Shown one piece after another: positions 541-9,959 of a stretch of DNA of 10,395 bases. The stretch comes from Eubacterium sp. (GTDB lineage: Bacteria > Bacillota > Clostridia > Oscillospirales > Acutalibacteraceae), in the NCBI GenBank assembly GCA_024696725.1, contig JAILGO010000082.1, positions 1-10,395 on the forward strand. The letters run 5' to 3'. The notes under the pieces were generated by a model. It was not told the DNA's origin and made no database searches. It saw nothing but the letters and a program-made list of their open reading frames with translations. Numbering within the stretch: position 1 is the stretch's first letter; each line of letters begins with the position of its first letter. The translations under genes were made by a program, and so were the position numbers.

Positions 541-3357
541 ATGCCTGACAAAATGTTAGAATATGCTCCCGAATGGACCTACGACGATTCGATAGAAATG
601 CGTGAGCCCATTGTTAAACTGGGAAAAATGATTACTGACAGAATTCCTATCGTTTTAGGCGTTCAGAAAATCACTAAGCAGGACCCGGAATATTGGGCGG
701 TTGCTACGATTTGTCCTACCGATGAAATGGCTGAAATCGCCATGAGAATGAAAAAGCGTCATCCGAGAACCTTAGCGGATATGAAAAAACTCACCGCTAA
801 TATGAATCTCAGCGAGGACATTGAAACGCTTCTCGAAAAAATGAGCGAAAACGGTCTTATCGAATGGAACTATGAGAATCCTCAGCACGAAAAGCAGTGG
901 GTTCTTCCGATGTTCGTTCCCGGTTCAGGCGAGTTCTCGAATATGAATAAAGAGCTTCTTGAGGTTCATCCCGAGCTCGGCCGCTTTTTCGAAAGAATGA
1001 CGCGTAACCCGCTTGAAAAGGTTACTCCGATGGTGCCTCCGGGAGGCGGCGGAATCGGTATGCACGTTATTCCCGTCGAGAAGGCTATCGAAATGGAAAA
1101 CGAGGCAATCGGTATTGAAAAGATTTCCTACTGGCTTGATAAATATGACGGCAAATACGCGGCTTCACCGTGCTCCTGCCGTTATTCAAGAAAAACCTAT
1201 GACGAGGGCTGCGCCGACGACCCCGAGGGATGGTGCGTAGCTGTAGGCGATATGGCTGACTATGTTGTAGAAACTAAGAAGGGCGGCCATTATATTACTA
1301 AAGAGCAGGCGCTTGAAATCTTTAAGCAGGGCGAAGAAAACGGTTTCGTTCATCAGATTACAAATATCGACGGCGAGGACAAGATTTTCGCTATCTGTAA
1401 CTGTAACGTTAACGTTTGCTATGCGCTTCGTACCTCTCAGCTTTTCAATACTCCTAATATGTCACGTTCCGCTTACGTTGCTAACGTAAAGACGGAGAAC
1501 TGCGTTGCGTGCGGACGCTGCGTTGAGCATTGTCCCGCCGGTGCGCTTAAGCTCGGTCAGAAGCTCTGTAAGAAGGACGGCAGCGAGGTTACATATCCGA
1601 AGCAGGAGCTTCCCGATACAGTAAAATGGGGACGCGAAAAATGGGAGCCCGAATACAGAGATAAGAACAGAATCAATTCTCACGAAAGCGGAACAGCTCC
1701 CTGTAAGACCGCTTGTCCCGCTCATATCGCTATTCAGGGATATCTTAAGATGGCGGCTCAGGGAAGATATGAGGAAGCTCTCGCACTTATCAAGAAAGAG
1801 AATCCGTTCCCCGCAGTATGCGGACATATCTGTAACAAGCGCTGTGAAGAAGCTTGTACGAGAGGAACTATCGACGAGGCTATCGCTATCGACGACGTTA
1901 AGAAATTCCTCGCTCACCGCGATATGGATAATAAGACACGTCTTATTCCTAAGAAGGTTATCCCGAAGATTACGGTCGACGGCGTGTTCGACCGCGAGCC
2001 CGGATTTACCGAAAAGGTTGCTATTATCGGCGCGGGTCCCGCAGGTCTCTCCTGTGCGTTCTTCCTTGCAGAAAAAGGTTATCTTAATGTAACCGTATTT
2101 GAAAAGAATAAGGAACCGGGCGGTATGCTCCGTTACGGTATCCCGAATTATAAGCTCGAAAAAGAAGTTATCGACGCTGAAATCGAGATAATTAAGGAAA
2201 TGGGCGTTGAAATCAAGTGTGGCGTTGAGGTCGGTAAGGACATTACGCTTGACGAACTCCGTGCCGAGGGTTATAAGGCATTCTATATGGCTATAGGCGC
2301 TCAGGGCGGACGTAAGGCAGGCGTTGAAGGCGAGGACGCTGAGGGCGTTATGACCGCAGTTGAATTCCTTCACGAAGCCGCTGAAAAAGAGGCTTACGAT
2401 ATCGGTAAGAATGTTGTTGTAGTCGGCGGCGGTAACGTTGCTATCGACGCGGCGAGAGTAAGCGTTCATTGCGGAGCTGAAAACGTTTCAATGTACTGTC
2501 TTGAAAGCAGGGAAGAGATGCCTGCTTCCGACGATGAGGTTGAAGAAGCTCTCGAGGACGGCGCAACCGTTAACTGCGGCTGGGGACCGAAGGAAATCGT
2601 TAAGGACGAAAACGGAAAGGTTAAGGCTATCGTATTCAAGAAGTGCTTATCCGTATTCGACGAGGAACATCGTTTCTCACCTAAGTATGACGAGAACGAT
2701 ACAATAACCGTTGAGTGTGAAAACGTTATCCTTTCTATCGGTCAGGCTATAGAATGGGGCGGCTTACTTGAAGGCTCTGCAGTTGAGCTTAACAGAAATA
2801 TGACCGCTCAGGCCGATACCTTTACCTTCCAGACCGCACAGCCCGATATCTTCGTAGGCGGCGACGCATTTACCGGTCCGCGCTTTGCTATCGACGCTAT
2901 TGCAATGGGTAAGGAAGGCGCAATCTCGATTCACCGCTTCGTACAGCCGAACTCAACTCTTACCATCGGACGTAACCCGAGATACTACGTTGAGCTTGAT
3001 AAGGACGACATCAAGGTTGAGGGTTATGACGACGCTCACCGTCAGGTACCGAAAGCAACGAGAGAGGTTGACCCCAAGGGCTTTAAGGACGATTGTAAGC
3101 TTCTCAGCGAGGAACAGGTTAAAATTGAAACTGCCCGTTGTCTCGGCTGCGGCGCAACAATCGTTGATAAGAACCGCTGCATCGGTTGCGGCGTATGTAC
3201 TACTAAGTGCGAATTCGACGCAATCCATCTTAACAGAGAGCGTCCCGAGTGCTCAACTATGTATAGGGCTGAAGATAAGCTTAAGGCAATTCTTCCGTAT
3301 ACAATCAAGAGAGAGTTTGCTATTAAAAAGGCAAAGCGTGCATCTAAGAAGGGATAA
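541..3357 (+). CDS. Multi-domain Fe-S/flavin NAD(P)H oxidoreductase (glutamate synthase small-subunit type)
   Basis: This 938-residue cytoplasmic protein combines several redox modules. Residues 1-205 are of unknown type, with a winged-helix-like stretch around 75-120. Residues 206-300 hold a Cys-rich region: CSCR at 211-214, C224, C232, and CNCNVNVC at 286-293. A ferredoxin cluster CxxCxxCxxxC follows at 321-331. The GltD/DPYD-type N-terminal Fe-S domain has C388, C392, C427, C431, C435 and C439. An FAD fold has GAGPAG at 497-502, an NAD(P)H fold has GGGNVA at 629-634, and an FAD-closing motif GGDAFTGP lies at 773-780. A C-terminal pair CLGC (867-870) and CIGCGVCTTKC (880-890) ends the protein. 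The family moves electrons between NAD(P)H and Fe-S partners. The true acceptor is unknown, and no glutamate synthase large subunit is present nearby. Standalone GltD is about 480 residues, so this is a large elaborated form. A strong SD supports the start. Confidence 0.88.
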   Translation: MPDKMLEYAPEWTYDDSIEMREPIVKLGKMITDRIPIVLGVQKITKQDPEYWAVATICPTDEMAEIAMRMKKRHPRTLADMKKLTANMNLSEDIETLLEKMSENGLIEWNYENPQHEKQWVLPMFVPGSGEFSNMNKELLEVHPELGRFFERMTRNPLEKVTPMVPPGGGGIGMHVIPVEKAIEMENEAIGIEKISYWLDKYDGKYAASPCSCRYSRKTYDEGCADDPEGWCVAVGDMADYVVETKKGGHYITKEQALEIFKQGEENGFVHQITNIDGEDKIFAICNCNVNVCYALRTSQLFNTPNMSRSAYVANVKTENCVACGRCVEHCPAGALKLGQKLCKKDGSEVTYPKQELPDTVKWGREKWEPEYRDKNRINSHESGTAPCKTACPAHIAIQGYLKMAAQGRYEEALALIKKENPFPAVCGHICNKRCEEACTRGTIDEAIAIDDVKKFLAHRDMDNKTRLIPKKVIPKITVDGVFDREPGFTEKVAIIGAGPAGLSCAFFLAEKGYLNVTVFEKNKEPGGMLRYGIPNYKLEKEVIDAEIEIIKEMGVEIKCGVEVGKDITLDELRAEGYKAFYMAIGAQGGRKAGVEGEDAEGVMTAVEFLHEAAEKEAYDIGKNVVVVGGGNVAIDAARVSVHCGAENVSMYCLESREEMPASDDEVEEALEDGATVNCGWGPKEIVKDENGKVKAIVFKKCLSVFDEEHRFSPKYDENDTITVECENVILSIGQAIEWGGLLEGSAVELNRNMTAQADTFTFQTAQPDIFVGGDAFTGPRFAIDAIAMGKEGAISIHRFVQPNSTLTIGRNPRYYVELDKDDIKVEGYDDAHRQVPKATREVDPKGFKDDCKLLSEEQVKIETARCLGCGATIVDKNRCIGCGVCTTKCEFDAIHLNRERPECSTMYRAEDKLKAILPYTIKREFAIKKAKRASKKG

Positions 3358-3363
3358 TAAATA

Positions 3364-3708
3364 ATGCACGAGCTCGGAATAGTATTTCATATAATAAAAA
3401 CGCTTGAAGACGTTGCTAAAGAGCAAAATCTTACTAAGGTTTCAAAGGTCGTCCTTGAAGTAGGGGAGGTATCTACCGTTATTCCCGAGTATCTTGAGGA
3501 TTGTTGGAAATGGGCGTGCAAAAAAAGCGAGCTTATGCTTGAAAGCGAGCTCGTCCATGAGACCGTAAAGGCAGTTACCTACTGTGAGGACTGCAAGGGC
3601 GAATACGAAACCGTTAAATATGCTAAAATCTGTCCCTATTGCGGAAGTGAAAACACATATCTTCTTAAAGGCAACGAGGTACAGATAAAAGAAATAGAGG
3701 CAATGTAA
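3364..3708 (+). CDS. hypA: HypA-like hydrogenase/nickel metallochaperone
   Basis: The 114 residues match the usual HypA length. The N-terminus is MHE, in which His2 (with Glu3 nearby) supplies the nickel site of the family. A zinc-ribbon follows, with C74xxC77 and C90xxC93. HypA delivers Ni2+ to the large subunit of [NiFe] hydrogenases, with HypB, and in some bacteria to urease. Start choice: the MHE motif requires this ATG, and AGAAGGGA at 3347-3354 inside the end of the previous gene gives a ribosome binding site 9 nt upstream. Only 6 nt separate it from the oxidoreductase gene, so the two are surely co-transcribed. No hypB, hypC-F, hydrogenase or urease subunit is present in the window, so the client protein is not known. 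Confidence 0.88.
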   Translation: MHELGIVFHIIKTLEDVAKEQNLTKVSKVVLEVGEVSTVIPEYLEDCWKWACKKSELMLESELVHETVKAVTYCEDCKGEYETVKYAKICPYCGSENTYLLKGNEVQIKEIEAM

Positions 3709-3713
3709 ATCAG

Positions 3714-3732
3714 TTTCTAAGGCTCTTAGAAA
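3714..3732 (+). repeat. Intercistronic hairpin after hypA
   Basis: TTTCTAAG (3714-3721) and CTTAGAAA (3725-3732) form a perfect 8-bp stem with a three-base loop, 5 nt after the hypA stop. No T-run follows, so it is unlikely to terminate transcription fully. It may mark an mRNA processing or stability site between hypA and the membrane protein gene. Confidence 0.5.
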
Positions 3733-3775
3733 AGAACCTGAAAAATACATATTTTTTAAGGGGAGGAAAAACATT

Positions 3776-4879
3776 ATGTTATTCCACATCTACGGCGATT
3801 TATCCCTGTGGCAGCTTCTCGGCTGGTGCCTGGTATTCGTCGGACTCGTTGTTGCTAATGAAATAGCACGCCGCACTAAAGCAGGCGGAATCTTCTGCTT
3901 TGTAGTTTTACCTTTAGCGCTTACAATTTACTTTGTAGTAATTAATATCGGCGCTAAAAGCTTCGCAGCCGACAATCCGACTATTGTTCAGATGAACGGC
4001 TGGTTCCACTATGCTAAGCTCTATGCTGCAACTATCGGTTGCGTAGGCTTTATGATTCTCAAGTATCATTGGGGAAGCCTCGGCAAGAGCCACTGGTTCA
4101 AGTGTTATCCGTTTATCATCGTTGGTATCAACATTCTTATCGCTGTTGCTTCCGACTTTGAATCCGCTTTCAAGGGAATGAAGGCTGCTCATGACGCAGG
4201 TCTCGGACTTGGTGTAGGCGGATGGTGGTATTCATCTGAAGGCGTATGGCTTTACGGCGGATGGTGGAACATCCTTAACGGTGTTGCAGGTCTTATTAAC
4301 ATTATGTGTATGACCGGCTGGTTCGGTATTTATTCCTCAAAGAATAAGCAGCAGGATATGCTCTGGCCCGATATGACATGGCAGTTTATCCTTGCTTACG
4401 ACGTATGGAATTTTGAGTATACTTACCTTAATCTTCCGCTCCATACCTGGTACTGCGGCGTTGCGCTTCTTCTTGCGCCGACATTCGCAAATGCCTTCTG
4501 GAACAAGGGCGGCTGGATTCAGAACCGTGCTAACACTCTTGCACTCTGGTGTATGTTTGCTCAGGTATTCCCGAGCTTCCAGAACCACTCCAAGTTCACT
4601 ACTCTTCCCGTTATCTATGCTAACCCCGAGCTCTTCGCAACGGGCGCTGACGGAAGAATGGACCCGAACCTTGTACTCACCGCAGCTGATGCAAACCCGA
4701 AGGCACAGGGCGTAGTTGCTGTTCTTGCAATCGCTGTTAATATCCTTGTAATTACGAATATTATCAAGAGAGCAAAAGAGCAGAAGAAGAATCCGTATAC
4801 TAACGAAATCTTTACTGACACCCGTGATTATAAGCTTGCACTTGAAAGAGCTGCAGAGGCTCATAAGGACGTAGCATAA
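3776..4879 (+). CDS. Tryptophan-rich polytopic membrane protein, probably DUF5692 family
   Basis: The 367 residues contain about eight or nine hydrophobic segments: near 10-28, 37-58, 80-97, 108-126, 164-185, 200-220, 221-241, 254-268 and 311-330. It ends in a charged cytoplasmic-looking tail (331-367). There are 18 Trp residues (nearly 5%), many in GGWW or GWF clusters in the middle third. I recall this kind of sequence as the uncharacterised DUF5692 family, from memory only. The start is backed by a very strong SD, AAGGGGAGG at 3758-3766. It follows hypA by 67 nt, contains no terminator before it, and is closed by a strong terminator, so it is likely the third gene of the oxidoreductase operon. 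It could anchor or receive electrons from the oxidoreductase, or transport an ion. No catalytic motif is recognisable. Confidence 0.72.
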   Translation: MLFHIYGDLSLWQLLGWCLVFVGLVVANEIARRTKAGGIFCFVVLPLALTIYFVVINIGAKSFAADNPTIVQMNGWFHYAKLYAATIGCVGFMILKYHWGSLGKSHWFKCYPFIIVGINILIAVASDFESAFKGMKAAHDAGLGLGVGGWWYSSEGVWLYGGWWNILNGVAGLINIMCMTGWFGIYSSKNKQQDMLWPDMTWQFILAYDVWNFEYTYLNLPLHTWYCGVALLLAPTFANAFWNKGGWIQNRANTLALWCMFAQVFPSFQNHSKFTTLPVIYANPELFATGADGRMDPNLVLTAADANPKAQGVVAVLAIAVNILVITNIIKRAKEQKKNPYTNEIFTDTRDYKLALERAAEAHKDVA

Positions 4880-5969: not shown

Positions 5970-7097
5970 ATGACTGTATTTATAAAAGGAAGAATTGATT
6001 CCTCTAACGCTGCTGAAACAGAAAACAATATTAACGAGCAAATCGGTGACTCCGTAGACGAGTTGACTTTTGACGCGTCAGAGCTTGATTATATTTCAAG
6101 CGCCGGTCTGCGTGTGATTCTGCGGTTTAAAAAGGCCTATCCGTCAACAAAGATTATTAACTGCAACTCGGAGATTTACGAAATATTCGATATGACGGGT
6201 TTTACCGAAATGATGGATATTTCAAAGGCGTACAGAAAGCTTTCGGTTCAGAACTGTGAGGTGATTGGCGAGGGCGCTAACGGTATCGTTTACCGTACCG
6301 ACCCCGATACAATCGTTAAGGTATATAAAAAGCCCGATTCACTTGACGAGATTCACAATGAGCGCGAGCTTGCAAGAAAGGCGTTTATAATGGGTATTCC
6401 TACGGCTATTCCCTATGACGTCGTACAGGTCGGCGATTTATACGGCTCAGTTTTTGAACTTTTAAACGCTGAATCGTTTTCACAGCTTCTCAGCGAGGGC
6501 GGAGACGTTGACGAGCTTGCGAAAGCTTCAATAGATATTCTTAAAACGATTCATAATACCGAGCTTAAGGACGGCGAGCTTCCGAGTAAAAAGCAGGAGT
6601 CGTTAGGCTGGGCTGAATACTGTAAGCCATATCTTCCCGAAGAAATAGGCGAGAAGCTTATTAAGCTGTTTAATGAGATTCCCGAATCGAACGGTATGCT
6701 TCACGGTGACTATCATATTAAAAATATTATGTGTCAGAACGGCGAAAATCTGTTAATAGATATGGATACGCTGTCCGTCGGACATCCCGTTTATGAATTT
6801 TCTCAGATGTATCTCGCGTATTTGGGCTTTAGTGAAACAAATCCCGATGACGTTATGAAGTTCCTCGGAATAGACCGCGATACCTCGATGAAATTTTGGG
6901 AATGCAGCCTTAAATACTATTTTGAGGGCAAGGACGCCGATTATATTAACGACGTAGTTATTAAAGCGAGAATTATTGCTTATGCAAGGCTTTTAAGACG
7001 TACTCTTAAGCGTAAGCCCGAAAAAACGGATATAATAGAAAACTGTAAAAAACAGCTTTGTGAGCTTGTACCTGTAACCGACAAGCTTTATTTCTGA
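5970..7097 (+). CDS. STAS domain fused to aminoglycoside-phosphotransferase-like kinase
   Basis: 375 residues in two domains. Residues 1-88 form a STAS (anti-sigma-antagonist) fold; ISSAGLRVIL at 42-51 aligns with the DSSGL phosphorylation loop of SpoIIAA/RsbV, so Ser44 (or Ser43) is the candidate site. Residues 93-345 are an APH/choline-kinase-like domain: glycine-rich IGEGANGIVYR (99-109), VKVYK with Lys117 as likely ATP lysine, HGDYHIKN (245-252) with catalytic Asp247 and Asn252, and IDMD (263-266) with a metal-binding Asp. The kinase resembles the TIGR02172 family, from memory. The substrate is unknown. A fusion suggests the kinase or its availability is tied to a partner-switching signal, and an RsbW-like gene lies in the same operon (9555-9959). 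It is the first gene after a consensus promoter, with a good SD. Confidence 0.87.
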   Translation: MTVFIKGRIDSSNAAETENNINEQIGDSVDELTFDASELDYISSAGLRVILRFKKAYPSTKIINCNSEIYEIFDMTGFTEMMDISKAYRKLSVQNCEVIGEGANGIVYRTDPDTIVKVYKKPDSLDEIHNERELARKAFIMGIPTAIPYDVVQVGDLYGSVFELLNAESFSQLLSEGGDVDELAKASIDILKTIHNTELKDGELPSKKQESLGWAEYCKPYLPEEIGEKLIKLFNEIPESNGMLHGDYHIKNIMCQNGENLLIDMDTLSVGHPVYEFSQMYLAYLGFSETNPDDVMKFLGIDRDTSMKFWECSLKYYFEGKDADYINDVVIKARIIAYARLLRRTLKRKPEKTDIIENCKKQLCELVPVTDKLYF

Positions 7098-7107
7098 GGA
7101 GCAGGAA

Positions 7108-7908
7108 GTGAAGTTTATTACCGATAAGGCTGTAACTGAAGCTTCTGAGATAGAGTATATTCGCTTCGGCAGCGGAGATAAAACCCTCGTTATCCTTCCG
7201 GGCTTAAGCGTTCAGAGCGTGATTCCGTCTGCTCCGGCGATAGCAAAGCAGTACGAAGCCCTCTGCGATGAGTTTACCGTATATCTCTTTGACAGAAGAA
7301 GCGTACTGCCCGATACATATAAAATCGCCGATATGGCGCGCGATACCGCGGAAGCTATTAAAACAATCGGTTTAAAAGACGTGTGTCTTTTCGGCGTTTC
7401 TCAGGGCGGAATGATTGCTATTGAAATTGCCGCGCGTTATCCCGGGCTTGTTAATAAAATGGTACTCGGCTCAACGGCTTGCCGTATTGACGACGAGCGT
7501 ATTGCCGCTGTCTCCGAATGGATTGAGCTTGCTAAAAAAGCAAAGTCAGAGGAATTATATCTGACCTTTGCGAAATATGTATATCCCGAGTCGTTTTATA
7601 ATGAGTACAGAAAGGCTTTCGCCGTATTGTCAAGAACGGTTACAGACAGCGACTTAGAGCGCTTTACAATTCTTGCAGAGGGAATTAAAGGACTCGATTT
7701 AACTGAGAACGTAAAGAAAATCGAGTGTCCGGTTCTTGTAATAGGCGACAGCGACGACGCAGTTCTCGGTCCCGATGCTTCCGAAGAAATAGCTGAGCTT
7801 TTAAAAAACGGAAGTCTTTATATGTACAGCGGCTACGGTCACGCCGTGTATGATATGGCTCCGGATTATATACAAAGACTATTAAGCTTTTTTACAAGGG
7901 ATTTTTAG
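7108..7908 (+). CDS. Alpha/beta hydrolase
   Basis: This is a 266-residue, single-domain hydrolase of typical length, without a signal peptide, so cytoplasmic. The nucleophile elbow GVSQG (96-100) provides Ser98. The acid is probably Asp214 or Asp217 (IGDSDDAVL), and His245 lies in GYGHAVYD. A strand-loop ILPGL (29-33) fits the oxyanion region. The substrate cannot be told from sequence; esters, lactones or thioesters are all possible. It begins with GTG at 7108, supported by GAGGAGCAGGA just upstream. The gap to the STAS-kinase stop is 10 nt and to the next start only 4 nt, so it is firmly in this operon. It may act on the product of the kinase or on a transported compound. Confidence 0.88.
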   Translation: MKFITDKAVTEASEIEYIRFGSGDKTLVILPGLSVQSVIPSAPAIAKQYEALCDEFTVYLFDRRSVLPDTYKIADMARDTAEAIKTIGLKDVCLFGVSQGGMIAIEIAARYPGLVNKMVLGSTACRIDDERIAAVSEWIELAKKAKSEELYLTFAKYVYPESFYNEYRKAFAVLSRTVTDSDLERFTILAEGIKGLDLTENVKKIECPVLVIGDSDDAVLGPDASEEIAELLKNGSLYMYSGYGHAVYDMAPDYIQRLLSFFTRDF

Positions 7909-7912
7909 TATT

Positions 7913-9511
7913 ATGAGATTTACTCCTGTAAAAACTAAATATAAGCTAACTCCCGAGTCTGTTGACTCTGTAAGCGAGGACGTCAGCTCGTTTCTCGTAG
8001 GACTTAAAACACAGAAAAAGAATATTATCGAAACAAGGCTTACCGTGGAGGAAATTCTGCTTAACCTTATGGACCGTTACGGACGGGAGCAGGAATTTAC
8101 TTACATAAAGAATAATTCTTTCGGAAAGCCGTATATATCGATTTCGCTCTATGCGGAGCAGTTCAATCCGCTTGAACGGGGCGACGGGGACGAATTCGGC
8201 GACTGGTCGAGCGCGCTTATTCAGAATTCGGATTACTCTCCCTCTTATTCCTACGATAAAGGCGTTAATACCGTTACCATCCGCTTTTCAAAGAAAGAGA
8301 TTAACCCGATTATTAAGCTTTTCGCCTCGATAGTAGCGGCTTTTCTCGTTTCACTTTTACGCTTCGCAGTTCCCTACGAGAGTATTGTTTATATCAAGGA
8401 AAGCGTACTCGACGTGCTGTATAATGCTTTTCTCGGTCTTATGACCACGGTTGAAATACCGCTTGTTTTCTTATCCGTTACCTGCGGAATAATCGGTATC
8501 GGAGACAGCTCGGTTTTCGGTAAAATCGGACGGAAAATGGTTCTTCGGTTTATTGCGGTTATGCTGTTTTTTACAAGCTTTGCAGGCGTAGTATTTTCGA
8601 TGTTCTTTACAAACCTGAGAGGCAATGACGGCGCCGGCTTATCTCTTAAGGTCGGATTCGAAATGCTTTTCGATTTAATCCCCGAAAACCTTATTGCGCC
8701 GATTGTCAGCGGTAACACGATGCAGATTGTGCTGATGGCGGTAATAATCGGCGTAACTCTTGTTATTCTCGGAAGTAAGGCTAAAACTATATCAAGTATA
8801 ATTTCTGAGGGTAACAGAATAATCGTATATATAACCGGTCTTATTACTAAGCTGCTTCCGTTTTTTATCTTTGTTGTGCTTCTTGATATGATATGGAGCG
8901 GAGACATAAAAACCTTTCTCAATATGTGGAAACCGGTTGTCGCTTTAGCGGCGGTGCTGACTTTCCTCCTTGTAATTATGCTTGTTGCCGTATCCTCAAG
9001 GGAAAAGGTAAGCGCGAAGCTTCTTATTAAAAAAATGCTTCCTACCTTCTTAATCGGTATAGGTACCGCCTCCTCGATTGCGGCTAACGGTGAGAGCTCC
9101 GAAACGCTTAACAGACGCCTCGGAGTCAAGAAAAGATTTGTTGATTTCGGACAGCCTGTCGGCAGCGTGATATTTATGCCCTCGACCGCAATTACTTTTA
9201 TGGTTTGTGCCATATACTTTTCTTCGTATTATAAACTCAGCATTTCAGTTTCGTGGTTTATAATCGCGATAATTATCTGCGTATTCATAGCGGTAGCTAC
9301 TCCGCCCGTACCCGGCGGCGCTATTGCTGCATATACAATCATTTTCTCACAGCTCGGAATTCCGAGTAAGGCGGTTGCAATCGTAATTGCGCTTGACATA
9401 CTGTTTGACTTTGTCGCAACTGCATTTGACGGCGCATTTTTACAGCTTGAGCTTGTAAGACAGGCTGAAGAGAATAATATGTTAAACTATGAAACATTAA
9501 GAAAAGAATAG
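7913..9511 (+). CDS. SDF/DAACS-type symporter with N-terminal degenerate RsbW-like domain
   Basis: 532 residues. Residues 1-128 are soluble: RLTVEEILLN (42-51) matches the N-box of RsbW-type GHKL ATPases, and NPL (85-87) the end of the G1 box. The G1 Asp/Gly and the G2 Gly-rich lid are missing, so ATP binding is doubtful. Residues 133-515 are a Glt-type transporter: IPENLIAPIVSGNTMQIV (256-273), hairpin-1-like TASSIAANGE (385-394), TM7 GSVIFMPSTAI (417-427), hairpin-2-like PPVPGGAIAAYT (464-475) and TM8 DILFDFVATAFD (495-506). The family normally imports dicarboxylates or amino acids with Na+ or H+. NMDGT is replaced by FMPST and the TM8 Arg by Ala502, so substrate and coupling ion probably differ. 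Canonical members are about 420 residues. The start is 4 nt after the hydrolase stop, with a modest GGGA site. Confidence 0.82.
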   Translation: MRFTPVKTKYKLTPESVDSVSEDVSSFLVGLKTQKKNIIETRLTVEEILLNLMDRYGREQEFTYIKNNSFGKPYISISLYAEQFNPLERGDGDEFGDWSSALIQNSDYSPSYSYDKGVNTVTIRFSKKEINPIIKLFASIVAAFLVSLLRFAVPYESIVYIKESVLDVLYNAFLGLMTTVEIPLVFLSVTCGIIGIGDSSVFGKIGRKMVLRFIAVMLFFTSFAGVVFSMFFTNLRGNDGAGLSLKVGFEMLFDLIPENLIAPIVSGNTMQIVLMAVIIGVTLVILGSKAKTISSIISEGNRIIVYITGLITKLLPFFIFVVLLDMIWSGDIKTFLNMWKPVVALAAVLTFLLVIMLVAVSSREKVSAKLLIKKMLPTFLIGIGTASSIAANGESSETLNRRLGVKKRFVDFGQPVGSVIFMPSTAITFMVCAIYFSSYYKLSISVSWFIIAIIICVFIAVATPPVPGGAIAAYTIIFSQLGIPSKAVAIVIALDILFDFVATAFDGAFLQLELVRQAEENNMLNYETLRKE

Positions 9512-9554: not shown

Positions 9555-9959
9555 ATGCAAGTCTTGACCATAGAAGCTAAAAATGAAAATCTGCAAAAGG
9601 TTATAGATTTCGTTGACGCAGTTCTGGTAGAGCACGACTGCTCTCTTAAGGTGCAGACTCAGATTGAGCTTTGTGTTGAAGAAATCTTTGTTAATATTGC
9701 TAATTATGCCTACGGCGACGAAATCGGAAACGCCGAGGTATCGGTAGAAGAAAACGACGGCGCGGTAACGATTACCTTTAAAGACGGCGGAATTCCATAT
9801 AATCCGCTCGCTAAGGACGACCCGGATACCACGCTTAAAGCTGAAGAAAGAGAAATCGGCGGACTCGGCATATTCCTTGTTAAAAAGAATATGGACAGCG
9901 TGTCTTATGAATATAAGGATTCTCAGAATATATTTTCAATGAAAAAGAGTATTATCTGA
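9555..9959 (+). CDS. RsbW-like anti-sigma regulatory ATPase (GHKL/HATPase_c family)
   Basis: The 134 residues match the length of RsbW/SpoIIAB-type serine kinases. The N-box VEEIFVNIANYAY (41-53) includes Glu42/Glu43 and Asn47. The G1 box is DGGIPYNPL (77-85), and the G2 lid is IGGLGIFLVKKNMD (101-114). All ATP-binding motifs are intact, unlike the related N-terminal domain of the preceding gene. Family members phosphorylate a STAS-domain antagonist on Ser and sequester a target, usually a sigma factor. A STAS domain is present in this operon (gene at 5970), making it a plausible partner; other STAS proteins could be partners. AAGGGGA at 9541-9547 is the SD, and the 43-nt gap to the previous gene shows no terminator. 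Confidence 0.9.
   Translation: MQVLTIEAKNENLQKVIDFVDAVLVEHDCSLKVQTQIELCVEEIFVNIANYAYGDEIGNAEVSVEENDGAVTITFKDGGIPYNPLAKDDPDTTLKAEEREIGGLGIFLVKKNMDSVSYEYKDSQNIFSMKKSII

Follow-up and report, generated by a model that had tools for sequence, protein, structure and literature searches.

A degenerate RsbW/SpoIIAB-fold domain fused to an SDF-family transporter and its possible place in STAS partner switching

Partner switching by an anti-sigma kinase, a STAS protein, and a SpoIIE-type phosphatase is widespread, and its output is often unknown in operons that lack a sigma factor. In SiaB-SiaC, BtrW/BtrV, and SypE/SypA the output of the switch is not a classical sigma factor; these systems act on a cyclase, on secretion, or on biofilm control. 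Secondary transporters can also bear one half of the STAS/anti-sigma pair in the cytoplasm, as in SLC26/SulP (PMC8256260), a likeness to the protein described here. MlaB-MlaF offers a second likeness, in which a STAS protein binds a component of a transporter; MlaF depends on MlaB for its stability, and Thr52, at the position usually phosphorylated, forms part of the interface (PMC7367683). The one published contact that we found between an SDF transporter and a STAS-bearing protein, DauA-DctA, runs via the transmembrane parts, and the isolated STAS domain gave no interaction (PMC5703999), which speaks against a simple precedent. No transporter-anti-sigma fusion was found among the listed matches of an open-access literature search covering titles and abstract openings, and one may be in print elsewhere. 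Here we analyze a window consisting of a whole contig (C149; 10,395 bases) from a 1.82-Mb draft genome of 195 contigs, in which the sole SDF gene found in that genome encodes such a fusion.

The fusion protein and the fold of its N-terminal domain

The transporter gene (positions 7913..9511, plus strand; ATG start, stop codon at 9509-9511) encodes 532 amino acids: an N-terminal domain (residues 1-132, 7913..8308) and an SDF domain of the SLC1/GltPh type (residues 133-532, 8309..9508). It stands in a row of genes that all lie on the plus strand. Upstream are a 375-aa fusion of a STAS domain to an APH-like kinase (5970..7097; PF01740, 41.5 bits; PF01636, 55.3 bits), in which the SSAGLR motif is kept, and, between this STAS-kinase and the transporter, an alpha/beta hydrolase (7108..7908; PF00561, E value of 8.8e-17) whose relatives, at 38 to 54% identity, occur near the fusion in 6 of 83 loci examined (script count). 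Downstream are a 134-aa RsbW-like kinase/anti-sigma protein with intact ATP-site motifs (9555..9959; HATPase_c_2, 82.9 bits) and the start of a PNP/UDP-phosphorylase-family gene that runs from 9998 to the window end. The first-pass annotation had placed the intact RsbW-like gene two genes' width downstream, and it is in fact the next gene, 43 nt past the stop codon. The intergenic gaps from the 5970 gene onward are 10, 4, 43, and 38 nt, suggesting that the genes from there to the window end are read as one operon. Further upstream lie genes for a HypA-like protein, a DUF5692 membrane protein, and a large Fe-S flavoprotein (3364-4879 and 541-3357), with no sign of anything that ties them to the operon, and a minus-strand frame at 80-418 (GPVAQLGE...GSNPFRST) that resembles the usual false reading across tRNA genes.

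Pfam recognized only the SDF domain in the 532-aa protein (residues 135-504, E value of 1.6e-54); the best match of residues 1-133 searched alone was to an RNA polymerase domain at 0.029, which is not meaningful, and neither this segment nor the whole protein reached the gathering score of PF13581. The motifs that had first suggested an RsbW-type domain are nonetheless where they were reported, with RLTVEEILLN at residues 42-51 and FNPL at residues 84-87, and in a profile alignment they share columns with VEEIFVN and YNPL of the protein encoded at 9555-9959. Comparison of the N-terminal domain with the RsbW-like family by hhalign gave 96.9% and 97.5% (E values of 1.9e-10 and 7.2e-12), and with mostly-gap columns removed the score was 65.3; none of 200 column shuffles exceeded 19.7, and the reversed profile scored 15.3. 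The match was retained when the homologues of the fusion were split by clade (96.1% for the close clade of 54 sequences and 96.8% for the distant clade of 41). An AF2 model of the domain had a pLDDT of 82.6, with residues 90-101 below 50; all 19 Foldseek matches in the PDB at E values of ≤1e-3 came from anti-sigma-factor entries, as did the best Foldseek/VIA matches. When PDB sequences were searched with the domain profile by hmmsearch, no anti-sigma factor and only weak unrelated matches came back (best E value of 0.14), so that it takes profile-profile or structure methods to see the kinship. An HMM of the domain also matches the kinases adjoining the fusion, most of them with E values of 6e-10 to 2e-4, and the motif (Y/F)(N/D)PL is common to both groups.

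The domain is present in all 95 homologues longer than 500 aa, a sample made up of the proteins above that length among P0001-P0099 with the query counted; the length limit means that this sample selects for the fusion. Outside it, among the 120 homologues listed, are four fragments in P0001-P0099 and the proteins P0100-P0120, which at 385 to 463 aa align over no more than 70% of the query and have room for the transporter part only. Taken together, the profile comparison, the predicted fold, and the homologues confirm that residues 1-132 have the RsbW/SpoIIAB fold and that a short linker connects this domain to an SDF transporter, which bears out the original proposal of a degenerate anti-sigma (GHKL) domain on a symporter: the predicted fold is the one proposed, and the homologues carry the same domain.

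We also considered an unrelated N-terminal extension with a chance resemblance to the motifs, a reading favored by the absence of a Pfam HATPase match and by the failure of the PDB-sequence search to return an anti-sigma factor. It was ruled out by the shuffle controls on the profile-profile match, by the AF2 fold, and by the recovery of HATPase_c_2 neighbors with the domain HMM, and we regard its probability as negligible.

In the wider set of genomes, the domain profile (E value of ≤1e-5) was found in 13 of 291 genomes of the class, 8 of them with the match in 536- to 545-aa frames typical of the fusion, and the full profile (E value of ≤1e-60) recovered the full-length fusion in 9 of 398 genomes of the phylum (the source genome counted), one of them a single-contig genome. 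These counts indicate that the fusion is sparse but widespread.

Loss of the ATP site

The residues with which this fold normally handles ATP are largely gone. The G1 box aspartate is present in 0 of 95 homologues, N-box Asn51 in 8 (absent in 87), the complete N-box E-x-x-x-N in 7, including the window protein, and the GxG lid pattern in 3, which do not include it. The window protein itself has N51, an alanine at position 81, and a leucine at the G1 aspartate position. In the proposed N-box, E46 is conserved in 94 of 95 homologues, whereas Asn51, in 8, is no family feature, suggesting that this portion of the motif match was partly accidental. Conservation across the 95 is otherwise strong at E47 (80), G81 (90), N85 (78), P86 (87), P110 (93), and N119 (94). 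In a 30-member alignment of the family of the RsbW-like protein at 9555-9959, by comparison, E43, N47, D77, G79, G102, G103, and G105 are invariant. With the G1 aspartate lost in every homologue and the N-box asparagine in most, the domain cannot be a normal ATPase, and on its sequence it is best classed as a pseudo-kinase that has lost the nucleotide-site residues and kept the fold.

This loss makes gating of transport by a nucleotide, one of two modes suggested in the first-pass annotation, unlikely, and leaves a protein-docking role possible. A broader version of the idea, in which a nucleotide or some other small ligand binds where ATP once did and itself gates transport, draws on the pocket that the fold has and on the conservation of E46, G81, N85, P86, P110, and N119, several of which align close to the former ATP-site motifs. 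The residues that usually hold ATP and Mg2+ have been lost, however, and nothing indicates any other ligand, so that we consider direct ligand sensing quite improbable.

Partner-switch genes and related domains around the fusion

To place the fusion in its genomic context we scanned species genomes, which yielded 163 relatives, and retained 78 loci whose titles include Clostridia, Lachnospiraceae, Oscillospiraceae, Phascolarctobacterium, Coriobacteriaceae, and others; with 5 loci from a second genome search this made 83, although the two sets may overlap. Genes were called with a simple longest-ORF caller, and the counts use the 78 of these 83 loci in which an SDF frame was called, the other 5 being dropped. 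A STAS, SpoIIE, or HATPase gene lies within three genes of the fusion in 32 of 78 loci (22, 22, and 21 loci, respectively), and no such gene lies within that distance in 46, a number to be read knowing that some contigs are short and that small genes may be missed. STAS genes account for 34 of the 412 genes near the fusion, compared with 4 of 306 at a distance of at least five genes. By genome, 12 of 23 that encode the fusion have a STAS gene no more than 5 kb from it (confirmed by script), where chance would give 0.47, an expectation derived from STAS counts and genome sizes on the assumption of one fusion per genome, where the 23 genomes hold 27. These 23 come from 26 full-fusion genomes encountered (G000, G011, and G025 were left out), and with seven of them from one genus the P value of 4e-15 overstates their independence. 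The single-contig fusion genomes G361, G240, and G148 have no STAS gene within 5 kb, G148 being judged by frame length alone.

Tight operons are seen in the close clade, where a STAS-kinase is followed by the SDF fusion, a free STAS protein (about 98 aa), and SpoIIE plus HATPase, with gaps of -4 to 45 nt between the four (L033, L034, L037, L039, L041, L043, L045, and L050). Of the 83 loci, 17 have a STAS-kinase (375 to 448 aa; e.g., L047:802-1941) no more than five genes from the fusion, and in 12 loci it is directly upstream; its kinase part could phosphorylate a STAS protein or a metabolite. The free STAS proteins have the motif SSAGLR in 23 of 24 cases, and the 24th (ASAGLR) still has the aligned phospho-acceptor serine, which we assign by comparison with SpoIIAA Ser58. 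Among the STAS-kinases SSAGLR is found in 16 of 17, the 17th being cut off. The three PP2C aspartates are present in all 18 SpoIIE proteins aligned, of 22 in two clusters. A partner-switching module with kinase, phospho-acceptor STAS, and PP2C phosphatase together is thus found in close relatives, not at every locus. The window itself has only the STAS-kinase and the RsbW-like gene; a free STAS gene and SpoIIE plus HATPase are on contig C126 of the same genome.

These neighborhoods agree with the second mode suggested in the first-pass annotation, in which a STAS partner gates transport. The partner named there, the STAS-kinase encoded at 5970, is directly upstream of the fusion in many close relatives, and at least as good a candidate is the free STAS protein (about 98 aa) whose gene comes directly after the fusion in relatives.

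An HD_4-domain protein of about 188 aa recurs near the SDF fusion, at L035:1468-2031 and 10 other loci, in several of them directly upstream of the STAS-kinase. On contig C126 an MFS_2 transporter gene (L133:1463-3745), whose product has a charged extension of about 280 aa at its C-terminus, is in a row with STAS, SpoIIE plus HATPase, and GH30 genes; the extension had no match to five HMMs. Contig C182 of the source genome (L134:404-1806) has STAS, HATPase, and sigma-70 genes in a SpoIIA-like row, with the HATPase match split across two frames in the assembly.

In 12 of 13 genomes examined no Sigma70_r2 match was found within 6 kb on the contig, some contigs ending sooner; the sole exception is genome G654, with a sigma-70 gene (L182:10698-11366) about 1.8 kb from the SDF fusion.

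The domain is not confined to SDF proteins. An HMM built from SDF-linked domains alone also picks up ABC ATPases encoded near the SDF fusion, matching them at the C-terminus, and ABC ATPases with the domain lie within five genes of it in 14 of 78 loci. These 14 C-termini, picked from 29 proteins in three clusters after the sequences were inspected, matched the SDF-linked domain at 97.8% (E value of 8e-13; score of 72.7 versus at most 18.9 in 60 shuffles) and RsbW at 83% (E value of 9e-6; score of 37.0 versus at most 18.5 in 60 shuffles), while an ABC set mixed with domain-less proteins and antisense frames gave no match (6.5% and 0.3%). A search with the ABC C-terminus found 71 proteins, 69 of them with ABC_tran. 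The ABC fusions are of the amino-acid type, with SBP_bac_3 and permease parts in a 1,137-aa example. The ABC fusion gene and the end of the SDF-fusion gene share 4 nt in L081, L086, L091, L098, L100, and L105; the ABC fusion is directly upstream of the SDF fusion in L063 and L083, and L065 has a permease-type gene, an ABC fusion, STAS, SpoIIE, and RsbW-like genes in a row with two divergent SDF fusions. Some ABC fusions combine binding protein, permease, and ATPase in one chain (examples are L086:4563-7973, L142:8653-11382, and L063:6877-7989).

A third transporter type is encoded in the source genome, where a 580-aa MATE transporter (C127:924-2663, the same as L135:924-2663) has a C-terminal HATPase_c_2 domain at 27.6 bits, just above the Pfam cutoff of 27.4. 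This domain is less degenerate, with the G1 aspartate and part of the glycine lid apparently kept, and one gene separates the MATE gene from a SpoIIE phosphatase gene. Among 39 other related genomes, G002, G005, G006, and G019 encode relatives of 70 to 79% identity over nearly the whole length, G009 has a partial match, and matches of 24 to 25% identity in G039 and G051 also reach the C-terminal domain. In a phylogenetic tree, whose kinase rows are 29 HATPase-envelope sequences and from which one badly framed MATE row was dropped, 21 SDF domains form one clade (100/99) and 9 ABC domains another (85/85); the tree does not settle the order between the groups or whether the fusions share one degenerate ancestor. 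The frameshifted row L067 was retained in alignment A5.

These distributions bear on whether the domain serves the transporter alone, by stabilizing, assembling, or localizing it, with no STAS partner. RsbW-type domains dimerise, SDF proteins are trimers, and some of the most conserved residues of the domain are likely structural; the 46 of 78 loci without a linked partner gene also fit such a role. The enrichment of STAS, SpoIIE, and kinase genes near the fusion argues against it, as does the occurrence of the domain on ABC and MATE transporters of differing architecture, and we therefore view a purely structural function as rather improbable.

Transport as a possible output of the switch, and comparison with known systems

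The transporter part belongs to the SDF family by score and has the SLC1 fold, with several Na+-ligand positions replaced. We numbered its residues through a HMMER alignment to an ancestral aspartate transporter, 9bgz. The position of R397 is mostly alanine (63 of 95); D390 is kept in 82 of 95 homologues, D394 (D499 here) in 84, and the two HP1 serines in 93 and 86. The loss of R397 with retention of D394 makes a neutral amino acid a reasonable guess for the substrate on sequence grounds. The N310 position has F or Y in 89 of 95, the D312 position P in 91, and the D405 position L in 81. The window protein has F421, M422, P423, and L510 at positions 310, 311, 312, and 405, so that only position 311 (M422) is kept of these four. 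The Na+-binding set in SLC1 comprises S/T92-93, N310, M/S311, D/E312, and D/E405 according to PMC12668577, and relative to that paper both the published Na+ set and the H+ set are incomplete here, judged on 310, 311, 312, 405, and R397, with 92-93 set aside. The replacement of Na+-ligand positions in nearly all members points to an unusual transporter, and the retention of D394 and the HP1 serines suggests that it really transports.

We propose that transport is controlled by a STAS protein that is switched by phosphorylation and docks on the N-terminal domain, a reading that we hold to be evenly poised between right and wrong. In this scheme an SDF-type transporter would present its RsbW/SpoIIAB-fold pseudo-kinase at the cytoplasmic N-terminus as the place where a STAS protein docks. 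The intact RsbW-like kinase would phosphorylate the STAS serine, and the SpoIIE phosphatase would remove the phosphate on a signal. The unphosphorylated STAS protein would then bind the N-terminal domain and alter transport, with either sign. The outcome would be a partner switch in which a transporter, not a sigma factor, is the output.

STAS docking is supported by the fold and profile kinship, the operons of the close clade, the enrichment of STAS genes, the kept phospho-acceptor serine and PP2C aspartates, the related domains on ABC and MATE transporters, and the absence of Sigma70_r2 near the fusion in 12 of 13 genomes. Against it stand the loci without a partner gene, the three single-contig genomes with no STAS gene within 5 kb, and the sigma-70 gene in G654. 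In SpoIIAB the STAS-binding face lies at the ATP pocket, and the loss of ATP binding could also have changed that face. The linkage to STAS and SpoIIE genes could moreover have another cause, for example, shared expression.

The same genes and linkage would fit a transporter that signals in the reverse direction, in which the N-terminal domain and the kinase would compete for the STAS protein. Substrate occupancy or transport would then alter the amount of free STAS and so report nutrient state to the switch and its targets. Such a transceptor would agree with the lost Na+-ligand positions of an unusual transporter, and DctA is said to control the sensor kinase DcuS (PMC5703999). However, a shared control handle accounts for the related domains on amino-acid ABC ATPases and on a MATE transporter better than a shared sensor would, the kept D394 and HP1 serines suggest real transport, and the SpoIIE partner at L094 has its own HAMP and N-terminal region, which could sense. 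We consider the transceptor unlikely, if worth keeping in view.

A wider form of the docking proposal is that an anti-sigma-kinase domain was recruited, lost the ability to bind ATP, and as a regulatory handle spread among the unrelated SDF, amino-acid ABC, and MATE transporter families in Clostridia and some other bacteria. A single STAS protein, phosphorylated or not according to a kinase and a sensor phosphatase, would then control several transporters at once, posttranslationally and with no sigma factor. We put this somewhat below an even chance. If true, such control of multiple transporters would be a Ser-phosphorylation analogue of PTS-style inducer exclusion and could provide fast posttranslational control of amino acid uptake in rumen and gut bacteria. 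The recurrent fusion of the anti-sigma half to importers points to a direct and testable output, which is transport.

Set beside known systems, the family differs from SpoIIAB, RsbW, and UsfX (HATPase_c_2, PF13581) in being fused to transporters, in having lost the N-box asparagine, the G1 aspartate, and the glycine-rich lid, and in falling below Pfam detection. The transporter differs from GltPh, ASCT, and AncInt in having mostly F/Y, P, and L at the N310, D312, and D405 positions and mostly alanine at that of R397. None of SiaB-SiaC, BtrW/BtrV, and SypE/SypA, to our knowledge, has a transporter domain as its output. MlaB binds the ABC ATPase fold itself, whereas here a separate anti-sigma-type domain is carried on the transporters. 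Finally, relative to SLC26/SulP proteins with their C-terminal STAS domain the arrangement is a mirror image, with the anti-sigma half on an SDF elevator-type protein, and control by a docked STAS protein would mirror the poorly understood role of the STAS domains of SLC26.
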